A stretch of 33,133 nt of DNA. It comes from an uncultured Verrucomicrobiota bacterium (GTDB lineage: Bacteria > Verrucomicrobiota > Verrucomicrobiia > Limisphaerales > CAIYYI01). Below, one piece after another: positions 15,347-30,260 of this stretch. Numbering within the stretch: position 1 is the stretch's first letter; every line of letters begins with the position of its first letter. The notes below the pieces were generated by a model. That model had not been told where the DNA came from and did not search any database. It worked only from the letters and a program-made list of their open reading frames with translations. The stretch lies in contig CAIYYI010000608.1 of assembly GCA_903930345.1 (NCBI GenBank), forward strand, positions 1-33,133. Direction: 5' to 3'. The position numbers were made by a program, and so were the translations under genes.

Positions 15347-17353
15347 TTACAACACCGGCACCACCCGATAGAAGCGCCTCGTCCGCTCCGGGGAATTCGG
15401 GTCGATCACCAAATGCGGGCTGGCCCACAGCGTGAGGTTGGTGAGCACCTGCCAGTTCGTCGCGCCCGGGCTGACCGTGTCCGCGTAATCCACCCGGAAC
15501 TGCTGGCCGACGGTTCCCGCGAGCGTTATGCCCGCGTAAAATTTCAGGTCGCCAAAGAACAGCAGGGATAACTGTGTGGCCTGGCTGGTCACGCTGCCGC
15601 CCGCCGAGCTGCTCACCACCACCCGGTATTCCCCGGCATTGGCCGGCGAGAGCTGCGTGAGGACCAGCGTGGTACCCGTCGCGCCCGGAATGTTCGTGCC
15701 GTTGAACTGCCACTGGTAACTCAGGCCCGCTCCGATCGCACCGACGCCCAAAGTCACCCCGCCGCCCGGACTGAAGCTCTGCCCCAGCGGTTGCGTGGTA
15801 ATGATGGGGCCGATGAGCGCCGCCGAATGGTACCACCCCGCCGCGATGGCGGTCACCCCGCTCACGCTGTCCGGAATGGTCGTCTGGCCATCGTCGTTCC
15901 ACCCCCACCCCACCACCGTGCCATCGCCCAGCAGGGCCACCGTGTGGAAATTCCCCGCCGCGATGGCCTTCACCCCGCTCAGGCCGGGCGGCACGGTTGC
16001 CTGGCCGAAGAGGTCGTTGCCCCACGCCACCACCTGGCCATCGCTCTGCAGGGCCACACTGTGCGAGCCACCCGCCGCAATGGCGGTCACCCCGGACAGG
16101 CCGAGCGGGACGGTCGCTTGCAGAAAAAACCCGTTGGCCCCCCACGCCACCACCGTGCCGTTGCTCCTCAGGGCCAGGGTGTGGCCGCCGCCCCCCGCAA
16201 TGGCGGTCACCCCGGTCAGGCCGGCGGGGATGGTCGTCTGGCCGTTGCCGTTGTTTCCCCACGCCACCACGGTGCCGTTGCTCTTCACGGCCAGGGTGTG
16301 CCACTGGCCCGCCGCAATCGCCCGCACTCCGCCCAGGCCGGCCGGGATGGTCGTCTGCCCATGGTTGTTGTTTCCCCACGCCGCCAGCGTGCCGTCGCTT
16401 TTCAAGGCCACGGCATGGTACTCACCCGCCGCGATGGCCCTCACTCCGCCCAGGTCCGCCGGAACGTTCGTCTGGCCAAAGTCGTTTTTCCCCCACGCCA
16501 CCACCGTGCCATCGTTTCGCAAGGCCAGGGTATGGTACTCCCCCGCCGCGATGGCCGTCACGCCGCCCAAACCGGCCGGGACGGTCGTTTGTCCGAAATC
16601 GTTCTTTCCCCAGGCCACCACCGTGCCGGAGCGCGGCGCGTTCGGGGGGACGGTGATGGCATTGGCGTCCAGGGTGACTTGCCCGGCCCGGGCCAGCGCC
16701 CGCCCTTCCATCGTCGCGCCCGTGACGAGCGTGATGGACTGCGCCGCCAGGAGGGTCCCTTTGAAAACCGTGCCTCCGCCGATGGTTGCGGAGCTGCCCA
16801 CCTGCCAGAAAATGTTGGCCGCCCGCGCGCCGCCGCTCAGGAGGACCTGGCGGCCGGTGGTCGTCACAAGGGTGGACCCCATCTGAAAGATCCAGACCGC
16901 GTTGGCATCCCCGGCCAGCGTCAGATCGCCTGACGCAATCGCCAGCGAGGAGGCGGACGTGTAGAGCCCGGGGCCCAGCGTCTGGCCGCCGAGATCGCCG
17001 GCCACCGGAATGGAGCCCGCCGTCCGACCGGCGGCATCGTTATAGGCCATGGTCAGATCGGCTTGGGCCTGGGCCGCGGCGGCATCGCCCGCGTGGAGCG
17101 TCCCGGTCAGCCCGGGTGAGCCTGTCACCGCAGTGCCTGGGCTCACGCCCAGATCCCCATGGATCATCGTGCCCCCCGTGCTGGTGACCGTGGCCCCGCC
17201 CAGCACCCCGAACGTGGCGGCGGATCCGAGCGGCACCGGTGTCTGGGCGGCTGGCGCATCAAATCGCAGGAGTGCCAGGACCAGGGCGGAGAGCACTCCC
17301 CATCGCACCTGGCTGGTGCCGTTTGCCGCCACCGCTGATGAAAATAGTCTCAT
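15347..17353 (-). CDS. Secreted DUF3494 (ice-binding-like) + RCC1-repeat + Ig-like protein
   Basis: 668 residues from ATG 17353, chosen because AGGAAG sits eight bases upstream; an upstream ATG at 17398 lacks this. A signal peptide (about residues 1-35, core VLSALVLALLRF) precedes a DUF3494 beta-solenoid (about 40-240: LGSAATFGVLGGATVTSTGG, GDLGVSPGTAVTG, FQMGSTLVTTTGRQVLLSGGA). Seven RCC1-type repeats of about 39 residues follow, each with VVAWG-N-GQTTVP...GVTAIAAGxxHTLAL. Next come an Ig-like domain (SYQWQFNGTNIPGATG...NAGEYRVVVSSSAG) and a C-terminal domain ending FYRVVPVL, common in secreted Verrucomicrobia proteins. It is probably a surface adhesin or structural protein; actual ice binding is unproven. 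The RCC1 blades (plus-strand 15809-16630) are strongly repeated in DNA. Confidence 0.8.
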   Translation of the reverse strand: MRLFSSAVAANGTSQVRWGVLSALVLALLRFDAPAAQTPVPLGSAATFGVLGGATVTSTGGTMIHGDLGVSPGTAVTGSPGLTGTLHAGDAAAAQAQADLTMAYNDAAGRTAGSIPVAGDLGGQTLGPGLYTSASSLAIASGDLTLAGDANAVWIFQMGSTLVTTTGRQVLLSGGARAANIFWQVGSSATIGGGTVFKGTLLAAQSITLVTGATMEGRALARAGQVTLDANAITVPPNAPRSGTVVAWGKNDFGQTTVPAGLGGVTAIAAGEYHTLALRNDGTVVAWGKNDFGQTNVPADLGGVRAIAAGEYHAVALKSDGTLAAWGNNNHGQTTIPAGLGGVRAIAAGQWHTLAVKSNGTVVAWGNNGNGQTTIPAGLTGVTAIAGGGGHTLALRSNGTVVAWGANGFFLQATVPLGLSGVTAIAAGGSHSVALQSDGQVVAWGNDLFGQATVPPGLSGVKAIAAGNFHTVALLGDGTVVGWGWNDDGQTTIPDSVSGVTAIAAGWYHSAALIGPIITTQPLGQSFSPGGGVTLGVGAIGAGLSYQWQFNGTNIPGATGTTLVLTQLSPANAGEYRVVVSSSAGGSVTSQATQLSLLFFGDLKFYAGITLAGTVGQQFRVDYADTVSPGATNWQVLTNLTLWASPHLVIDPNSPERTRRFYRVVPVL
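15809..16630 (-). repeat. Seven tandem 117-bp units encoding RCC1 blades
   Basis: In-gene tandem repeat with a period of about 117 bases (39 codons), each unit encoding one RCC1 blade. Units 1 and 2 are the most alike at the protein level (AWGKNDFGQT in both). The Gly/Ala/Val and WG codons recur in nearly the same places, so the units may be recent duplications. Confidence 0.8.
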
Positions 17354-17514
17354 TTCGATTCTTCCTGTTGTCCGTGACTGCTTTCCCTCCTCCAACATTC
17401 TGCGCGATGTGCGGCACCTTTGCTATGGGGTATAACCCTACCATGCTTTGGGAGTCCGCGTTTCTTTTGAACACCTTAGTCTTGGTATAATGCACTCCTG
17501 ATCAACGGCCTTAG

Positions 17515-17575
17515 TCATTGCCAACTTGGAGTTTATCCTGCAGCATCGCCATCCTGATGAAAATCCCGCCGTCGG
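17515..17575 (+). repeat. Dispersed 'ATCCTAATGAAAAC' repeat, copy E (partial, diverged)
   Basis: GTCATTGCCAACTTGGAG and ATCGCCATCCTGATGAAAAT match the 3' part of the copies at 23008-23122, 26001-26114, 26664-26762 and 27304-27412. The 5' part is not recognisable. It lies 80 bases upstream of the membrane-protein gene at 17655. The rest of the spacer 17354-17654 holds nothing that I recognise. Confidence 0.6.
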
Positions 17576-17654
17576 CAAAACGAACGAAAACTTCGTCCAA
17601 AATGCTTGGAGGCCGCAATGAGATCACATGCAAACGCTATAGGCAGATCATGAT

Positions 17655-18269
17655 GTGAAGGCATACAAAGTTATCCCAAAGTGGAAACACAGACGTCCGC
17701 CAAAAGGCGCGTGGTTCACTCTTGACCATCGCGGGGCCACCATTGGCGCAACGAACCGCAATCTGCTGAACGCAGCGTGCTTCCTCTTTTTGGCGATTCT
17801 TTGGAATAGTGTTATGACCGTTTTTCTGGCGTACGCGGTTGCCAACACGATGCCGCACCTGGGCCTTCCCATTCCCAATTGGTTTCCAGCTCCCAAGACA
17901 GCGTACAGCGGAGAAGTGAGTCTTCCAATGACTGTCTTTTTCTGGGTCTATATCACGCCGTCTGTCCTGATTAGTTTGGGTCTTTCGATTGCATTCTTGT
18001 TTAACTTGTGCGGGCGAACTGAGGTGCGTATTGCAGGCCATCAGGGAACAGTTTTTACGGGTATCGGCAAGCTTGGTTGGAAACGACGGTTTGCCCGGTC
18101 GCAGTTAAAATCTTTAGACATACACCGCAGCTACGACAGTGAGGGAGCCGACACTGTAACGGTTTTGCTGAAAACGAAAACGGGCGAAGAAATCAGTTTT
18201 GGGTCATTCCTTAACGATGAACGCCGTCTGTTCCTCCTCGACGCGCTGCGGACCAGTCTGATTTCATAA
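17655..18269 (+). CDS. Hypothetical two-span membrane protein in an A+T-richer stretch
   Basis: 204 residues from a GTG start; it is the first possible start after an in-frame stop. Two membrane segments are visible: AACFLFLAILWNSVMTVFLAYAV (about residues 40-62) and FFWVYITPSVLISLGLSIAFLF (about 94-115). The C-terminal soluble part alternates beta-strands (GRTEVRIAGHQGTVFTGIG, WKRRFARSQLKSLDI, ADTVTVLLKTKTGEEISFG) and ends in a helix, as in small bacterial PH-like domains. Base composition is clearly less G+C-rich than the neighbours, which suggests acquisition. A dispersed repeat lies upstream. I do not recognise a function. Confidence 0.65.
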   Translation: MKAYKVIPKWKHRRPPKGAWFTLDHRGATIGATNRNLLNAACFLFLAILWNSVMTVFLAYAVANTMPHLGLPIPNWFPAPKTAYSGEVSLPMTVFFWVYITPSVLISLGLSIAFLFNLCGRTEVRIAGHQGTVFTGIGKLGWKRRFARSQLKSLDIHRSYDSEGADTVTVLLKTKTGEEISFGSFLNDERRLFLLDALRTSLIS

Positions 18270-23007: not shown

Positions 23008-23122
23008 TTGTTTTGGTCTCGTGGTCCGCGGTCCGGCAGTCGTTTTTCATCCTTCCATTTGCCTTTGCCAACTCGGGCTTCTCTCTCCAATATCGCCATC
23101 CTGATGAAAACCCCGCCGCCTG
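23008..23122 (+). repeat. Dispersed 'ATCCTAATGAAAAC' repeat, copy A
   Basis: Begins TTTTGGTCTCGTGGTCCGCG and ends ATCGCCATCCTGATGAAAAC plus CCCGCCGCCTG. It is preceded directly by a GAGCCGTCCCCG box. Unlike copies B-E it is not followed by a plus-strand gene; it lies next to the end of the response-regulator gene. Confidence 0.8.
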
Positions 23123-23129
23123 TGACCAC

Positions 23130-23975
23130 TCAACTTCCCGGCGGTTGGCTTGCCTTCAGATCGGCCTCCGTCAGCTCAAAATACTTCTGGGCGCAATCCG
23201 GGCACATGCCATGTGTGAACCGCGCGGTGGTGCGTTGGGTGATGTAGGCCTCCACCCGGTTCCAAAACCCCCGGTCATCGCGGATCTTTTTGCACCCCGC
23301 ACAAATGGGGATGAATCCGCTCAGGGTTTTGACATTGTTCAGCGCCTCGTTGAGCTTGGCCACCGTGCCGGTCAGCTCGCGGGTGCGAGCCTCCACCATG
23401 GCCTCCAATTCCTGCCGCCGCGCCTTGGCCAGGATCGAATAGTTCCATTTGGAGGTCAGGGTGCAGGCCAGTTGGCGGGCCTCCGTGTGGTCAAAGGGCT
23501 TGCGCAGGAACACCACCCGGTCCGTGCTGCCAAAGCGCTTGAACAGTTCCTCCCACGTGTAATCGGCATAGGCCGTGCAGATGACGAACTGCATTTCGGC
23601 GTCCAGATCCCAGATCCGTTCGATCGTTTCAATGCCATCCCAGCCCGGCGGCATGCGCACGTCAATGAAGCCCAGGGCAAAAGGTTTGCCCTCCTTGACG
23701 GCCGCCGCCACCGTGTTCAACGCTTCCTGCCCCTGGAAGGCCGAACTCAACTCATACTTTGGCAGCAGGATGGAAGGCAACACCGCCTCCCCGAAAAAGG
23801 AGGATTCCAACTGGGCCAGATTCTCCGTGGCGCTCTCCGCATGGTTCAGGATGCTGCGAAAATCATCATGGATCGGACGGTGGTCATCCACCAGCAGGAT
23901 GCGACGGTTGTCTTGCAGGTCATTCATAGGATCGTGGGGTGGGGTGGATTCGCTCTGGGTGGCCGGGGCGGTCAT
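23130..23975 (-). CDS. Response regulator with receiver domain and C-terminal CxxC...CxxC domain
   Basis: 281 residues from ATG 23975, which overlaps the kinase stop by ATGA; an ATG at 23927 (MNDLQDNRR) is also possible. The receiver domain starts RRILLVDDHRPIHDDF, with the phospho-acceptor D105 in GFIDVRMPPGWDG, the switch Thr in ICTAYAD and K159 in FLRKPFD. It carries an insertion of about 35 residues after the first helix. A coiled-coil linker (ARRQELEAMVEARTRELTG) leads to a conserved C-terminal domain with PICAGCKKIRDDRGFW (C225, C228) and THGMCPDCAQKYF (C258, C261), likely a metal site. There is no DNA-binding domain or enzyme output. It should be phosphorylated by the coupled kinase and act through protein contacts; the target is unknown. 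Confidence 0.87.
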   Translation of the reverse strand: MTAPATQSESTPPHDPMNDLQDNRRILLVDDHRPIHDDFRSILNHAESATENLAQLESSFFGEAVLPSILLPKYELSSAFQGQEALNTVAAAVKEGKPFALGFIDVRMPPGWDGIETIERIWDLDAEMQFVICTAYADYTWEELFKRFGSTDRVVFLRKPFDHTEARQLACTLTSKWNYSILAKARRQELEAMVEARTRELTGTVAKLNEALNNVKTLSGFIPICAGCKKIRDDRGFWNRVEAYITQRTTARFTHGMCPDCAQKYFELTEADLKASQPPGS

Positions 23976-25327
23976 TTGACCGGCAGGCTGAGGGTGAAGG
24001 TGGCCCCCTGGGCATGCCCGGGGCTGGCCACCGTCAGCGCCCCGCCCATCTCCCGCGCCAGATTGGCGCACCCATGCAGCCCGAAACCATGCCCATTGGG
24101 CTTGGTGGTGAAGCCAAAGTTGAAAATGCGCTCCAGATTCTCCGGGCGGATGCCGACCCCGTTGTCAGCCAGGGTGATGGCCACCGTGTCCGGCGTCGTC
24201 AGGGAGGCGCTGATGTGGATGCGGCGGTCCCCGCGTTCCAGGGTCTTGGTGGCATCCCGGGCATTTTGCAGCAGGTTGATCAGAATCTGGAGAAGCTTGT
24301 GTTTTTCCACATTCACCAGGGGCAGCTCAGGCGCGAAAGCGCATTCGATTTCGATGTCATGCTTTTTGAAGGATTCGACAAACAACCGGGTGGCATCCCC
24401 GATCAGCACCGACAGGCTAACCGCATCCTTGACGCCCGCCACCCCGGCATAGGTCTGCTGGAGGGCGATGATTTGGCGGATCTGCTCCTGGCTTTCCGCC
24501 AGCACGTGCAGTTTGTCCGAGATGAGCTGGTGTTCCCGGGCCATCACCGAGGCGATCTCCGTCAGAAACATGGGCACCTTCCCCCCCCGGGCATCCGCCT
24601 GGATAAACCTGGGGAAATCCGTTTGCTGGCCCAGCAATTCGGCCAGCCGCGTCAGGGTGCTGATCTTGGAATGGCCCACCACCTCCCGGATGATGGTGGA
24701 GGAGGTCATGGCCGTGTTCAGCAGGTTGCCCACGTTGTGCAGCACGCTCGTCGCGATTTCCGCCATGCCCGCCCGGCGGGCCGTTTCCACCAGTTGCATC
24801 TGCGCCTCGTGGATGTCCTGGGCCTGTTTCGAAATGAGCTGGTTCTTCTCCTCCAGCCGGCTGATCAGCGATTCCTGCCTTTGATTGGCCCGGGCCAGCA
24901 GCTCCACCTTGCTCGTGTTGGCGGCCTCCAGCTCGCACAGCCGCATGCCCACCTTGATTTTGGCCTTCAACACCGCCGGTTCGAACGGTTTCACCATGTA
25001 ATCATCCGCCCCGGCGTCGAACCCCGTCATGATATCCTCCAGCCGCTGCATGGAGGTCAGCATGATCACAAACAGGTAATTGGGCCGTTTCAGCTCCCGC
25101 AGCCGGCGGCAGATGGTCACCCCGTCCATGCCGGGCAGATTCCAGTCCAGCAGCAGGATCTTGGGCTGGGAACTCTGCAGCTTTTCCCAGGCGGCTGTGC
25201 CGTTGGTGATGATCGAGTAGGAATACGCGGAAGCGGCGAAGACCGTTTTGAAAAAGCTGATGTAAACGCCGCTGTCCTCGACAATCAAAATGTCTTCCCG
25301 GGCGGCACTTTGACCTGGCTCTGGCAT
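23972..25327 (-). CDS. Hybrid sensor: receiver domain fused to histidine kinase
   Basis: 451 residues from ATG 25327 (MPEPGQSAAREDILIVEDSG). The N-terminal receiver has D61 in LLLDWNLPGMDG and the Lys of DDYMVKPFEP. A coiled coil follows (ANQRQESLISRLEEKNQLI). The dimerisation box is EIATSVLHNVGNLLN with H197, a subtype common in PVC and proteobacterial hybrid kinases. The HATPase domain has the N-box QILINLLQNARDA, the G1 box LADNGVGI and the G2 box GHGFGLHGCANLAREMGG. No membrane segment or PAS sensor, so a cytoplasmic kinase controlled through its own receiver. The stop overlaps the response-regulator start by four bases. Long start extensions upstream enter the repeat region and are rejected. 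Confidence 0.88.
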   Translation of the reverse strand: MPEPGQSAAREDILIVEDSGVYISFFKTVFAASAYSYSIITNGTAAWEKLQSSQPKILLLDWNLPGMDGVTICRRLRELKRPNYLFVIMLTSMQRLEDIMTGFDAGADDYMVKPFEPAVLKAKIKVGMRLCELEAANTSKVELLARANQRQESLISRLEEKNQLISKQAQDIHEAQMQLVETARRAGMAEIATSVLHNVGNLLNTAMTSSTIIREVVGHSKISTLTRLAELLGQQTDFPRFIQADARGGKVPMFLTEIASVMAREHQLISDKLHVLAESQEQIRQIIALQQTYAGVAGVKDAVSLSVLIGDATRLFVESFKKHDIEIECAFAPELPLVNVEKHKLLQILINLLQNARDATKTLERGDRRIHISASLTTPDTVAITLADNGVGIRPENLERIFNFGFTTKPNGHGFGLHGCANLAREMGGALTVASPGHAQGATFTLSLPVK

Positions 25328-25421
25328 AATGTATGGGTTCAGGCTGTCGCCTGAGGTTGACCCGGCGAACCGCCATCGTGCGGGGGATATCGGATGAATC
25401 GGGATTTTCCTTAGGCGAAAG

Positions 25422-25435
25422 GTGAGCCGTCCCCG
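25422..25435 (+). repeat. GTGAGCCGTCCCCG box
   Basis: One of eight copies of the 12-base word GAGCCGTCCCCG in the window. The others start near 22987, 25498, 25760, 25978, 29612, 29868 and 30209. This copy stands alone, without the CCCGGTGGGG part seen in most. Confidence 0.75.
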
Positions 25436-25466
25436 TCGAATCCCGCGTTCCGCGTTCAGTTGGGCC

Positions 25467-25865
25467 ACCCCGCATCCCCGGTGGGGAAGCTCCCGGTGAG
25501 CCGTCCCCGTTCCCCCAGCTCCGACTTCCGCAATAAAGAGCGAATATCAGCACCAACTGATCCAGACCGGTTGTCGCAGTGAGACCAGTGGCGTTCTGGG
25601 TAGGGGGGAGTCCAACCGGCTCGGCGAAGCCTCGCCCCACCGGGTTTCGTGTTTCCCCTCAGTCTGGATTATCGAACACCCCCAATTTCCGGCCGGTCAC
25701 CCCAGGCGAAAAACACCCACCAACCCGTTGCCGGTGGTCCCGCTCTGCGGGATCCCGGTGAGCCGTCCCCGTCTTCAAATCCGCAATCCGCATTTGTAGG
25801 CCGTGTGTCCTCACGCGGCGTCCCTGATTTCATCCGTCCCAATTTCTGCATTGTGGTTCGCCATA
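25467..25865 (+). repeat. Mosaic repeat block M, copy 1 (about 400 bp)
   Basis: Shares long nearly identical stretches with 29574-29957. Examples are CTTCCGCAATAAAGAGCG, ACCGGTTGTCGCAGTGAGAC, GTCCAACCGGCTCGGCGAAG and GTCCCGCTCTGCGGGATCCC. Each copy starts with a CCCGGTGGGG...GAGCCGTCCCCG box and contains a second such box. No gene was seen; ORFs here are not protein-like. It lies in the 812-base spacer between the kinase start and the lipoprotein gene. Confidence 0.85.
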
Positions 25866-25869
25866 ACAG

Positions 25870-25951
25870 TCTCAACCCAAAGTTCGTTTCATTATCTGGG
25901 AACAGGTTCAATTCACCCTGGCGAAGAACCAGCTCAATTTGCCCAGCCCGC
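25870..25951 (+). repeat. Mosaic repeat block L, copy 1
   Basis: Begins CTCAACCCAAAGTTCGTTTC and continues GGGAACAGGTTCAATTCACC. It matches 29497-29579 (CTCAACCCAGAGTTCGTTTC). Here it follows block M; at the other locus it precedes M. Confidence 0.8.
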
Positions 25952-26000
25952 ACCCCCGGTGGGGTGAACCTCCTGGTGAGCCGTCCCCGTCTTCTCCACG

Positions 26001-26114
26001 GTTTTGGTCCCGAGGTCCGTGGTCCCGCAGTCTTTTCCCAATATTCTTTTTGCCACTGCCGACGCGGGTTTTCCCAACCAAAATCGTCGGCCTTATGAAC
26101 ACCAGTGCCACTGG
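26001..26114 (+). repeat. Dispersed 'ATCCTAATGAAAAC' repeat, copy B
   Basis: GTTTTGGTCCCGAGGTCCGT, then GCCGACGCGGGTTTTCCC and CGGCCTTATGAACACC. It is preceded directly by block L and a GAGCCGTCCCCG box. It ends 25 bases before the lipoprotein gene at 26140. Confidence 0.78.
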
Positions 26115-26139
26115 TGACCGGAGTCCAGCGTCTGGCAGT

Positions 26140-26529
26140 ATGAACGCACTTCGCGCACTGGCTGCATTTCTCGTGGTCCTGCTCCTGTTCGGCTGCACCG
26201 CTCCGACCGGTTCGCACAGGTACGTTGGGGTGGCCGCCCATGAACTGGATTGGCCCTACCGGTACAACCTGGTTCAAACCAACGGTTGGTGGGCTGGTAC
26301 CATTGATCGCCGCGACACGAACGGCTGGGTGTTCTGGGACACCATGGAACTGACCCATCAGGACGCGCAGGCAATCCGGTTCAAAGCGAGGGTCGGCGAC
26401 CGGGCAGACTTCCATCTCGGATGGTACTTGAGCCTGGGGGCCGTAACCCCGCAGGGCTTTTCGGCGATGCTGACCGGAGATCTGTTCGACAGCCGGGCGA
26501 TTGAACTGGTGTTTGAGCCGTGCCGGTAG
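26140..26529 (+). CDS. Small hypothetical lipoprotein
   Basis: 129 residues from ATG 26140. An in-frame ATG at 26095 lies inside the dispersed repeat and would spoil the signal peptide, so the later start is preferred. Signal peptide MNALRALAAFLVVLLLF with lipobox LLFGC, lipidated Cys19. The mature part is beta-rich: YRYNLVQTNGWWAGTIDRRDTNGWVFWDTM and ADFHLGWYLSLGAV, with many Trp. Lgt in this window would be its modifying enzyme. No family recognised. It is the first of three consecutive repeat-plus-small-gene units. Confidence 0.65.
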   Translation: MNALRALAAFLVVLLLFGCTAPTGSHRYVGVAAHELDWPYRYNLVQTNGWWAGTIDRRDTNGWVFWDTMELTHQDAQAIRFKARVGDRADFHLGWYLSLGAVTPQGFSAMLTGDLFDSRAIELVFEPCR

Positions 26530-26663
26530 CCAAGCCCTGCTGGGTGTGTATTGCCAGTGAAAACGCCGCTGCTTAAACAAGCCCGCTGGCCCCGGATCTG
26601 AGGAGAACGGACCTTTCTGGAGCGAGCTGATGGCTGATCGCCCATAGCCAATACCCTTTCCCA

Positions 26664-26762
26664 TGGTTTGGTCCTGCCGTCATTTTTGATACTTCCCTTT
26701 GCCATTGCCAATGCGGGTTTTCCGATCCAATATCGCCATCCTAATGAAAACTCCGCCACTGC
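26664..26762 (+). repeat. Dispersed 'ATCCTAATGAAAAC' repeat, copy C
   Basis: TGGTTTGGTCCTGCCGTC, then TTTGCCATTGCCAATGCGGG and ATCGCCATCCTAATGAAAAC. It ends 10 bases before the membrane-protein gene at 26773. The spacer from 26530 to here shows nothing else. Confidence 0.8.
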
Positions 26763-26772
26763 TGCCAACGCT

Positions 26773-27213
26773 ATGCGAGTTTTGATCGCCATCTTCCTAC
26801 TGTTTTTCAGTTGTGCTGAGGCGCTGGCTTGTCCCGCATGCAGCTACGAGCGGATGTTGGTTTGGTATCCGACCGTAGTTTGCATTCGATTGGCAGTTGT
26901 GCCGTTCCTGATTGCGAACCGGCTGGATTTTGTCCGGGTGCTGGGTGTATTCGTGGGCTACGAAGTGTTTTGGTATTTCGCCTATTGCTTTGCGCTCTGG
27001 TTTGCCCATCCTGCGGTTGGTGTGGGCTTCACTCAGGCGGCCGCCAGCATTGGATTTTTTCTTCTCCAGCATGGCGTGCCGGGCGCGGCACTGCTCTTTT
27101 TGCTTGGCCGGTTTCGGTGCTTTCGCCGGACACCGGACAGGGGTTTGCCGTGGTGGCAGGCGTTGCTGTACATTCCTGCGGTCATGATTATCCGGGCGCT
27201 TGCGGGGGCGTGA
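26773..27213 (+). CDS. Small hypothetical multi-span membrane protein
   Basis: 146 residues from ATG 26773. An N-terminal signal-like segment (MRVLIAIFLLFFSCAEALA) is followed by a CPAC motif (residues 20-23) and three hydrophobic spans: TVVCIRLAVVPFLIAN, VFVGYEVFWYFAYCFALWF and ASIGFFLLQHGVPGAALLFLLG, with a basic loop RFRCFRRTPDR before a last span. The CPAC pair right after the predicted cleavage site could bind metal or take part in thiol chemistry, but this is speculative. Less G+C-rich than the housekeeping genes. It sits between copies C and D of the dispersed repeat. The family is not recognised. Confidence 0.62.
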   Translation: MRVLIAIFLLFFSCAEALACPACSYERMLVWYPTVVCIRLAVVPFLIANRLDFVRVLGVFVGYEVFWYFAYCFALWFAHPAVGVGFTQAAASIGFFLLQHGVPGAALLFLLGRFRCFRRTPDRGLPWWQALLYIPAVMIIRALAGA

Positions 27214-27303
27214 TTTCAGGGTCGCAGAGGAGACTGGCACGAAGCGGGCTTTGGTGGACTTGGTGGACGGGGTGGGGAAAAATTGGTTTTTCGCATGGGC
27301 TGA

Positions 27304-27412
27304 CGGTTTTTGTCCTTTGGTCCCGCAATCGTTTTTCCAACGTTCTATTTGCCATTGCCAACGCGGGTTTTCCGAACCAATATCCCTGTCCTAATGAACA
27401 CCCTGCCACTGG
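27304..27412 (+). repeat. Dispersed 'ATCCTAATGAAAAC' repeat, copy D
   Basis: CGGTTTTTGTCCTTTGGTCC, TTTGCCATTGCCAACGCGGG, TTTTCCGAACCAATATCC and CCTAATGAACACCCTGCC. From its ATG (27395) it could read MNTLPLE, which resembles the start of addiction-module antitoxins. It ends 25 bases before the DUF4177 ORF. Confidence 0.8.
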
Positions 27413-27464
27413 AAACAGCGAACAATAGGTTTGCTCGATGTTACTGTTGGCCGTCTCACACGCC

Positions 27465-27719
27465 ATGAAACCGACTTGGGAATACACCGCACTGAAGATC
27501 CCGATGGACTTCAGCATCTTTTCGGGGACCGACTTCGATGCAGGACAAGTTACCGAGCAGCTGAATGCGCTCGGTGCGGAGGGGTGGGAACTCGTCTCCA
27601 CGTGTCCTGTACAGCAGGCCAGAGGCGACACTGCTTACGTCTGTGCGCTGTTGAAGCGACAGGTTTTCGACCATGATACGACGACAGCCCAACCCGATCA
27701 GCCGAGCGAACGGGGATGA
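27465..27719 (+). CDS. DUF4177 family small protein
   Basis: 84 residues from ATG 27465 (MKPTWEYTALKIP), the usual family start. An in-frame ATG at 27438 with AGG nine bases upstream is an alternative giving 93 residues. The family core is visible: WEYTALKI, then QLNALGAEGWELVSTCPV and YVCALLKRQV, a small beta-alpha-beta fold of unknown function often found beside mobile or accessory genes. Cytoplasmic. It is the third repeat-plus-small-gene unit and lies 60 bases before the secreted beta-helix gene, with which it could be co-transcribed. Confidence 0.78.
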   Translation: MKPTWEYTALKIPMDFSIFSGTDFDAGQVTEQLNALGAEGWELVSTCPVQQARGDTAYVCALLKRQVFDHDTTTAQPDQPSERG

Positions 27720-27779: not shown

Positions 27780-29492
27780 ATGAAATCACATTCCCTCGCG
27801 GCACTGCTCCTATTCCTGGCCCTCGGCCGCTCCCTCGCCCCGGCGGCGGTTGCGCCCGCTCCCGCTGGCACCCCGGACTTTGGCCCCAACGTCTTTATTT
27901 TTGATGCCGCCACCCCGGCCGCGGATATCCAGGCCGCCATCGCCCCGGTTTCCGCCCGGATGGAGGCCAACCAATTCGGCTCGGAGCGCTACGCCGTGCT
28001 CTTCAAGCCCGGCACCTACGATGTCCCGATCAAGCTCGGGTTCTACATGCAGGTGTGCGGCCTGGGCCGGAACCCGGATGACACGGTCATCGCCGGCCGG
28101 ATCAGCGCCAGCGCCCAGTGGATGGGCCGCAACGCCACCTGCAACTTCTGGAGCGCGGTGGAGAATCTGTACGCCAGCCACAGCCGGGGGATGCTCTTTG
28201 CCGTTTCTCAGGGGACGGAGATGCGCCGCGTGCACATTGCCCACAGCCTGACGCTGGCCGAGGATGGCTGGTCGAGCGGCGGCTTCTTTGCCGACTGCAA
28301 AATCGACGGGCCGGTGGGTTCCTATTCGCAGCAGCAATGGTTCGCGCGCGGCTCCCGGTTCAACCGGTGGAGCAACGGCGTATGGAACCAGGTCTTCGTC
28401 GGGTGCCAGGGCGCACCGGCGGAGAACTTCCCGGCGCAGGCTTACACGGTGATTGACCGGACCCCGATCATACGCGAGAAACCGTACCTGATCTTCGAGG
28501 GGGGGCGGTACGCGGTCATGGTTCCCGACCTGCGGAAGGAGACCGCCGGCCCCTCCTGGGAGTCGGCAGCCAGCCCCGGGCAGCCGGTCTCCATTGATCA
28601 GTTCCACATTGCCCGGGCGGATCGCGACACCGCCGCCACGCTCAACGCCGCCCTGCGGGCCGGCCGGCATCTGCTGTTTACGCCCGGGCTCTATCCCCTC
28701 AGCGAAACGCTGCTGGTCACCCGGCCCGACACCATCGTCCTGGGCCTCGGCTATCCCACGCTCATGCCCGAGGGCGGCGCCCCGGCCATCGACATCGCCG
28801 ACGTGGATGGGGTGAAAGTCGGCGGCCTGCTCCTGGACGCCACCCGCCGGAACACCCGGACCATGGTGCAGGTGGGCCGGGCGGGCAGCACAGTCTCCCA
28901 TGCGGACAATCCGATCTGCCTCTACGACCTCTTTATCCGCATTGGGGGGGCCATTGAGGGCCGGGCCGACTGCATGGTCACCCTTGATGCCAACCAGGTC
29001 ATCGCCGAAAACCTCTGGCTCTGGCGCGCCGACCATGGCAAGGGGGCGGGGTGGAATGACAACCGCAACGCGCACGGCCTCGTCGTCAACGGCCGGGATG
29101 TGGTCATCTACGGGCTCTTCGTGGAGCACGCCCAGGGCTACCAGACGGTTTGGAACGGCGAGAACGGCCGCCTCTACTTCTACCAATCCGAGATGCCCTA
29201 CGACGTCCCCGGCCAGGACGACTGGAAGCATGGTACGGTCAACGGCTTCGCCTCCTACAAGGTTGGCGACCGGGTGACGAGCCACGAGGCCTGGGGCCTG
29301 GGCGTCTATTGCTACTTCAACCAGGGCCTGCCCATCTGGGCGGACAGCGCCATCGAAGCCCCCGTCGGCCCGGGCATCAAGTTGCATCATCTCACCAGCA
29401 TCCACCTGAACGGGTCGGGCGGCATCCGCCATGTTCTCAACGATCAGGGCACCCAGGTGCAGAAAGGCACGCTCAAGGCCACGCTGAAATAG
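27780..29492 (+). CDS. Secreted right-handed beta-helix protein (relative of proteins annotated 'adenylyl cyclase')
   Basis: 570 residues from ATG 27780; a TTG at 27738 would spoil the signal peptide. Signal peptide MKSHSLAALLLFLALGRSLAPAA. The mature protein opens DFGPNVFIFDAATPAADIQAAI and continues with YAVLFKPGTYDV, GFYMQVCGLGRNPDDTVI, DGWSSGGFFADCKID and VTRPDTIVLGLGYPTL, then ENLWLWRADHGKGAGWN, VVNGRDVVIYGLFVEHAQ and VTSHEAWGLGVYCYFN. This order fits a family widespread in Streptomyces and PVC bacteria, often mislabelled adenylyl cyclase; it looks like a pectate-lyase-type parallel beta-helix, so a carbohydrate-active role is more plausible. No cyclase motif is seen. Block L of the mosaic repeat starts four bases after the stop. 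Confidence 0.8.
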   Translation: MKSHSLAALLLFLALGRSLAPAAVAPAPAGTPDFGPNVFIFDAATPAADIQAAIAPVSARMEANQFGSERYAVLFKPGTYDVPIKLGFYMQVCGLGRNPDDTVIAGRISASAQWMGRNATCNFWSAVENLYASHSRGMLFAVSQGTEMRRVHIAHSLTLAEDGWSSGGFFADCKIDGPVGSYSQQQWFARGSRFNRWSNGVWNQVFVGCQGAPAENFPAQAYTVIDRTPIIREKPYLIFEGGRYAVMVPDLRKETAGPSWESAASPGQPVSIDQFHIARADRDTAATLNAALRAGRHLLFTPGLYPLSETLLVTRPDTIVLGLGYPTLMPEGGAPAIDIADVDGVKVGGLLLDATRRNTRTMVQVGRAGSTVSHADNPICLYDLFIRIGGAIEGRADCMVTLDANQVIAENLWLWRADHGKGAGWNDNRNAHGLVVNGRDVVIYGLFVEHAQGYQTVWNGENGRLYFYQSEMPYDVPGQDDWKHGTVNGFASYKVGDRVTSHEAWGLGVYCYFNQGLPIWADSAIEAPVGPGIKLHHLTSIHLNGSGGIRHVLNDQGTQVQKGTLKATLK

Positions 29493-29496
29493 CGGG

Positions 29497-29579
29497 CTCA
29501 ACCCAGAGTTCGTTTCGTTATCTCGGAACAGGTTCCATTCACCTTGGCCAAGGCCCAGATCAACTTGCCCATCCCGCAC
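29497..29579 (+). repeat. Mosaic repeat block L, copy 2
   Basis: CTCAACCCAGAGTTCGTTTC, then CGGAACAGGTTCCATTCACC, matching 25870-25951. It starts four bases after the beta-helix gene stop and leads straight into block M. Confidence 0.8.
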
Positions 29580-29957
29580 CCCAGCCCCGCATCCCCGGTG
29601 GGGCTCCTGCTGAGCCGTCCCCGTTCCCCCAGTTCCGACTTCCGCAATAAAGAGCGAATATCAGCACCAACTGATCCAGACCGGTTGTCGCAGTGAGACC
29701 GGTGGCGTTCTGGGTGGGGGAGAGTCCAACCGGCTCGGCGAAGCCCCACCGGGTTTCGTGTTTCCCCTCGGTCTGAATTATCGAACACCCAAATTCTGAC
29801 CGGTCTCCCCAGGCAAAAAGCACCCACCAATCTGTTGCCGGTGGTCCCGCTCTGCGGGATCCCGCTGAGCCGTCCCCGTCTTCAAATCCGCAATCCGCAT
29901 TTGTGTAGGCCGCGTGTCCCTGATTTCATCTGTCCCAATTTCAGTTTTGTGGCTTGC
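29574..29957 (+). repeat. Mosaic repeat block M, copy 2
   Basis: Near-identical to 25467-25865 over about 380 bases, with small indels (the stretch after GGCGAAGC is shorter here). It contains two GAGCCGTCCCCG boxes and the TTCAAATCCGCAATCCGCAT end block. Confidence 0.85.
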
Positions 29958-30260
29958 CACCGCCTTCGGTCCCCCCAAGCCCAAATGCCCCAAGGGGGCA
30001 TCGGCCTCCAGCCCAAGGTTGCCGCCTGGCGGCTACCTTGGGGATACGCCCCCAACCCATTCACCAACCTTGAAAAGGTTGCGGCAGACCCCGGTCTTGC
30101 AAAGGGTGATCCATTCTTCTGAGTCATGCCCCAGCCGCTCAATCCGGCCATTTCCCCATCCGCGTTCAGTTGGGCCGCCCCGCGTCCCCGGTGGGGCGAA
30201 CCTCCCGGTGAGCCGTCCCCGTATTCAAATCCGCACTCCGCATTCAGACGGGCCGCCACA

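Follow-up and report, generated by a model that had tools for sequence, protein, structure and literature searches.

The window analysed here, 33,133 nucleotides of DNA from an uncultured Verrucomicrobiota bacterium, carries five copies of a repeat, all on the plus strand and at the positions given in a preliminary description of the locus. Copies B, C and D follow one another at a spacing of 649-650 bp, each ahead of a small gene in the same orientation. The pattern of a repeat before a gene thus holds for these three and for copy E, but not for copy A, behind which there is no gene on its own strand. From left to right the features are:

17508-17600, plus strand: copy E; module 17511-17600 with TTGCCA (17518-17523), 17 nt, CAGCAT (17541-17546); leader 17557-17658; core degenerate; 5' flank of the integron type, CTCCTGATCAA
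17655-18269, plus strand: membrane-protein gene behind copy E; its GTG start overlaps the leader stop (GTGA, 17655-17658)
23010-23129, plus strand: copy A; type-1 5' extension 23010-23057; truncated module 23058-23129 with TTGCCA (23065-23070), 17 nt, CAATAT (23088-23093); the 3' end abuts a convergent response-regulator gene (23130-24071, minus strand)
26001-26118, plus strand: copy B; type-1 5' extension 26001-26048; module 26049-26118 with degenerate -35 CTGCCG (26056-26061), 17 nt, -10-like CAAAAT (26079-26084); leader ATG at 26095; truncated in the leader, core lost
26140-26529, plus strand: lipoprotein-like gene behind copy B; frame open from the leader ATG of copy B; no Pfam match
26659-26771, plus strand: copy C; type-1 5' extension 26659-26697; module 26698-26771 with -35-like TTGCCA (26705-26710), 17 nt, -10-like CAATAT (26728-26733); leader ATG at 26744; truncated in the leader, core lost
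26773-27213, plus strand: membrane-protein gene behind copy C; no Pfam match
27310-27439, plus strand: copy D; type-1 5' extension 27310-27347; complete module 27348-27452 with -35-like TTGCCA (27355-27360), 17 nt, -10-like CAATAT (27378-27383); leader ORF 27394-27468 (MNTLPLETANNRFARCYCWPSHTP, then stop); recombination core GTTGGCC (27446-27452)
27465-27719, plus strand: DUF4177 gene behind copy D; its ATG overlaps the leader stop (ATGA, 27465-27468)
27687-27715, plus strand: left arm (R''-L'') of an attC site, GCCCAACCCGATCAGCCGAGCGAACGGGG, where the DUF4177 gene ends; no right arm

The start of the gene behind copy D, previously placed at 27438, is most likely 27465. Likewise, the conserved repeat end described before is retained in copy D, with its recombination core, whereas copies B and C break off in the middle of the leader. 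Two direct repeats of about 600 bp, GAGCCGTCCCCGTC-rich and 85-96% identical (25400-26000 and 29489-30226), flank the B-C-D units together with the next gene, and stretches of a similar kind lie next to the 5' extension in other copies. Elsewhere in the window, a tandem repeat with a period of 117 bp lies within a coding region (15837-16708).

In the module, a sigma-70-like promoter (TTGCCA-N17-CAATAT) is followed by a short leader ORF (MKNKPPVTTNEKFVQYYC..) and by the 3' end ..TTACTG/TTNGGC, the slash marking the crossover. The distance between the -35-like and -10-like boxes is exactly 17 nt in all five window copies, and in copy D the -35-like TTGCCA lies 91 nt before the core. The core is GTTRRRY-like, with the consensus GTTNGGC and a crossover between G and TT at which conservation ends; its fourth base is variable, as it is in the attC and attI sites of relatives. 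The leader ORF crosses the core in the frame (T)GT-TAG and stays open. We noticed no Shine-Dalgarno sequence before the leader ATG, and the RNA may be almost leaderless, since this ATG lies about 10 nt past the -10-like box. Codon positions in the leader vary alike, with no third-position excess, which speaks against selection on the leader peptide; therefore the open frame rather than the peptide seems to be kept. A structured RNA was also considered and rejected, as the window gave no Rfam match and folding z-scores were around zero.

The genome of the window (G000; 7.2 Mb in 709 contigs, a fragmented assembly, 90% complete with 5.9% contamination) was searched with R1, a profile made from eleven repeat copies. 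There are at least 41 matches at E<=1 and at least 39 at E<=0.001, the best with an E value of 1e-35, and chance is thereby excluded; all copy counts from the genome searches are lower bounds, a limited number of candidates having been scored. An exact-pattern search of the contigs turned up one match, by chance, within an NhaA-like coding motif. The repeat, described earlier as one unit of about 110 bases, resolves into two layers: a core of about 95 bp (positions 45-140 of R1; the module measures about 95-105 bp) shared by most copies, and a further 5' extension of about 45 bp (GTTTTGGTCCCATGGTCC..) found in about sixteen, A-D among them. Other copies, including E, carry another 5' flank (..TGTAATGCGCTCCTGATCAAGGTG) or share none. 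On the right, conservation among 29 core copies vanishes immediately past ..ATTACTGTT(N)G(N)C.

The preliminary description had suggested that a profile of the copies be run against the whole genome and relatives, recording strand and distance to the nearest start codon, and had named random placement relative to genes as a finding that would remove the cassette or leader idea. This search was done, and placement is not random. Behind 25 of 28 full copies, an ORF of 60 aa or more begins within 60 nt on the same strand; the proportion is 0.41 on the reverse side and 0.54 for random places. The median ORF behind full copies is 136 aa long, compared with 34 aa on the reverse side and 70 aa at random places. 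Ten proteins encoded behind copies were scanned against Pfam; eight had no match, one matched DUF6228 and one a phosphopantetheine-attachment domain.

Are the repeats themselves attC sites? On such a reading they would form an integrase-less cluster of attC sites (CALIN), each belonging to the gene in front of it. The tandem order of genes and repeats, the core-like GTTNGGC end and an integrase elsewhere in the genome are in its favor, but the repeat folds no better than shuffled sequence on either strand, forms no hairpin of R''-L'' and L'-R' arms and has no RYYYAAC arm, and solitary copies have their gene behind them, not in front. In addition, separate and truly palindromic attCs occur in the same loci. 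Folding and these true attCs refute attC as the primary identity of the repeat, and we regard a CALIN of such sites as very improbable. attI sites act double-stranded, and the lack of a folded hairpin site, an attI trait, is found in the repeat.

The true attCs of the order covary strongly (62 cells with double changes, 24 in shuffles). With R2, an attC covariance model built from other genomes only, we find that 8 of 21 attCs in G000 are located downstream of a module, no more than 2 kb away and on its strand (binomial P=1.4e-13; the 21 are those at E<=0.001, the last one counted at 0.00107). Among the local attC matches at E<0.01, 22 of 24 are on the strand of the module and 15 of 24 are downstream of it, positions having been compared by hand. 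The order module-gene-attC is seen for part of the copies only, and most copies have no recognisable complete attC behind their gene. Three consecutive attCs follow one module on contig C52. On contig C446 (L044, 2370-4505), five consecutive attCs on the same strand stand ahead of a module, an integrase-less array leading into an attI module. Two or more attCs in a row without intI, the CALIN definition, therefore occur at some loci such as C52 and C446, and not in the window.

The window itself had been said to contain no attC core. Copy D nevertheless has GTTGGCC at 27446-27452, and the attC left arm at 27687-27715 scores 23.7, against at most 16.4 for shuffles. Homologues of the DUF4177 gene in genomes G136 and G096 are directly followed by an attC, therefore the gene behind copy D is a cassette gene. 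For the gene behind copy E, a scan of nine homologue loci gave one marginal attC match (E=0.09). These sequence data support the view that the genes behind the repeats are integron gene cassettes, at least in part.

The absence of an integrase, reported earlier, is true of the window, but G000 does encode one beside a copy of the repeat. This single full-length integron integrase (contig C120, 2238-3515; 333.6 bits, cut-off 265) has a shortened copy 114 bp before its start that points away from it; attI sites usually have this position and orientation. The copy is itself broken at the core. On contig C518 a second copy stands beside a remnant of the same intI gene with an internal deletion. 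Given these two neighbors, the integron-type 5' flank of several copies is the intI-attI intergenic region. The C120 integrase reads LLGL..IYLR where 12 relatives have LLGH..IYTH, and the catalytic histidine of box III is missing; a complete integron of functional intI, attI and cassette array was not found in G000. On contig C213 (L042, 1338-3497), a gene for an XerC/IntI-like tyrosine recombinase is directly followed by an IS91-like transposase gene; a module with its attC cassette precedes the pair by 1.2 kb.

Within the order, 95 of 293 genomes match the C120 integrase at E<=1e-40. In its closest relatives the stretch from intI to the first cassette has the ending of the repeat, ..(C)CAANATACTGTTNGGC, and about 15 related integrons have attI sites that share this 3' end as well as the leader frame and the ATGA overlap. 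In 13 of the 15 relatives' sites with an in-frame leader, a -35-like box (TTGACA, TTGCCA or similar) precedes the core by 91-99 nt, two unrelated pattern matches having been excluded by eye. The core-crossing ORFs of relatives run in the same frame (..QYYCSA, ..GQTYCSA, ..SHYYCSV), and in L105, L092 and L108 the leader stop overlaps the ATG of the first gene as ATGA. Near the intI start of L098, L088, L105 and L107 there is a palindrome, GACAAAGTGACTTTGTC, with further copies of ACTTTGTC just ahead of the attI core; these may be binding sites of the integrase or of a regulator.

We conclude, with a probability of about 0.85, that the repeat is a dispersed integron attI module, in which a Pc-type promoter is combined with a nearly leaderless leader ORF and an attI recombination site. 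The preliminary description had offered cassette-style capture or a mobile promoter or leader, and both prove to be halves of one thing, cassette genes behind an attI promoter-leader; the repeat would be a promoter-leader because it is the attI region of an integron. As in the chromosomal integrons of the same order, the core ..ACTG/TTNGGC is preceded by a -35-like box at 91-99 nt, a leader ORF runs across the core and the first cassette gene lies directly behind. Unlike in these integrons, which normally have one such site beside intI, there are at least 39 in G000, nearly all without intI.

It could be argued that each copy is what remains of a complete integron acquired separately, its intI since lost, with no amplification of the module. 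The decaying intI beside the modules on C518 and C120 and the part of the integron-type 5' flank kept in some copies would agree with this, yet intI sequence is found beside only 2 of at least 39 copies (an intact frame on C120, the deleted gene on C518), and both the common type-1 5' extension and the tandem B-C-D units point to multiplication after intI was lost. A second carrier genome also weighs against separate acquisition, which we consider unlikely. A first search of 58 relatives had found no other carrier of the repeat; a wider search of the order with R1 gave six matches in G067 and two in G199. G067, which belongs to another family and is 98% complete, contains a 105-bp module of its own in at least 40 copies (40 scored, 40 matched) and has no integron integrase above the cut-off, the best match reaching 85 bits.

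The G067 module has a sharp left end directly before the -35 box, and its leader stop is often a TAG inside GTTAG. An ORF lies within 60 nt behind 27 of 30 modules, and all 11 attC matches are downstream of modules on the same strand. Modules stand in tandem on C81, C78, C118, C287 and C35, so the order attI-gene-attI is seen in these sets as well as in B-C-D of the window. Some G067 modules are directly preceded by an attC left arm. At L174, the module at 1605 begins within the loop region that belongs to an attC left arm (GCCGAACAAACCGGCTGCAGGCAACGCCGGGATCG) and so looks like a replacement of the right arm; L195, L187 and L179 are similar. As a general rule, an attC left arm before modules is unsupported in G000, where none of 23 copies without the 5' extension had one at a score of at least 10, and weak in G067.

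The sharp left end just ahead of the -35 box would also suit a mobile promoter or MITE-like repeat that spread by transposition or recombination and came to lie before genes by chance, its link to integrons being secondary. So would the many copies, with the 5' extension co-amplified in about 16, and the lack of any known integron case with so many attI copies: to our knowledge, attI copies without intI have no precedent in such number, and in the open-licence literature we found no paper on many attI copies per genome. Terminal inverted repeats and target duplications, however, were not seen. On its right side the repeat stops precisely at the attI crossover, beyond which the genes differ; attCs come next on the same strand, and intact integrons of relatives agree in this end and in where promoter and leader are placed. 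On this evidence we think such an element improbable.

The nearest precedents of the attI-gene units are the delta-attI-type cassettes and ORF-11 of attI1. In delta-attI-type cassettes an attI sequence replaces the attC, and these cassettes are excised and inserted by IntI1; attI1-aadB-attI1 is excised by IntI1 at about 100% (PMC12901181). In the units described here, too, attI sequence may stand in place of attC, and the attI-gene-attI-gene-attI-gene succession of B-C-D fits such cassettes. However, the attI of these cassettes is mostly 14-18 nt long (once 244, once the full 65 bp) and lies inside one mobile integron, whereas the G000 modules are about 100 bp, include promoter and leader and are dispersed over the chromosome. 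ORF-11 is a short ORF across the crossover with a stop supplied by the cassette, often TAG in GTTAG, for which translational coupling was proposed (Hanau-Bercot et al. 2002, as reviewed in PMC8876359). The module leader likewise crosses the core, with the GTTAG stop geometry in G067, but differs in that we noticed no Shine-Dalgarno sequence and in its ATG close to the -10-like box. CALIN are clusters of attC lacking an integrase and possibly served in trans (PMC8618304, PMC9668308); they too hold cassettes away from intI, yet they are defined by attC, whereas our units share attI and many have no attC. Cassettes outside an integron platform are also known from attG sites, described as divergent genomic targets of cassette insertion (PMC12901181), but in G000 the genes are preceded by a homologous module of about 100 bp.

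How would these units have arisen? Judging from the sequence, the subclade IntI would join cassette circles, consisting of a gene and its attC, to attI between G and TT of ..ACTG/TTNGGC. The captured gene would be transcribed from the promoter of the module; its translation would probably be coupled to that of the leader ORF, for which the cassette supplies the stop. Dispersal most likely took place by duplication and by attI x attI or attI x attC recombination of cassettes that carried an attI. Promoter activity, translational coupling, the action of the integrase and the route of dispersal are thus all predicted properties. Since the cores of B and C are lost, most genes lack a complete attC and IntI reads LLGL..IYLR, the integron system in G000 is probably largely relict, its promoters left in place. 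G000 seems to be without a working integrase, and captured genes would therefore sit behind many docking sites rather than one. A bolder and quite tentative idea is that in this order the module itself multiplies and travels with genes, as gene-attI cassettes that attI x attI recombination would move, giving tens of genes a promoter of their own with no central platform.

In the usual description, an integron has a single integrase, attI and promoter, followed by an array of cassettes in which good expression is limited to the first few genes. The dispersed and partly tandem attI-gene units are a new form of integron, with tens of attI-promoter-leader modules distributed along the chromosome, each at the head of a gene of its own, as seen in genomes from two families. 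Such an arrangement would overcome the poor expression of distal cassettes. Part of the captured genes would escape surveys that rely on intI or attC clusters; the ACTG/TT core, preceded at 91-99 nt by a -35 box, provides together with the leader frame a handle with which to search for them.
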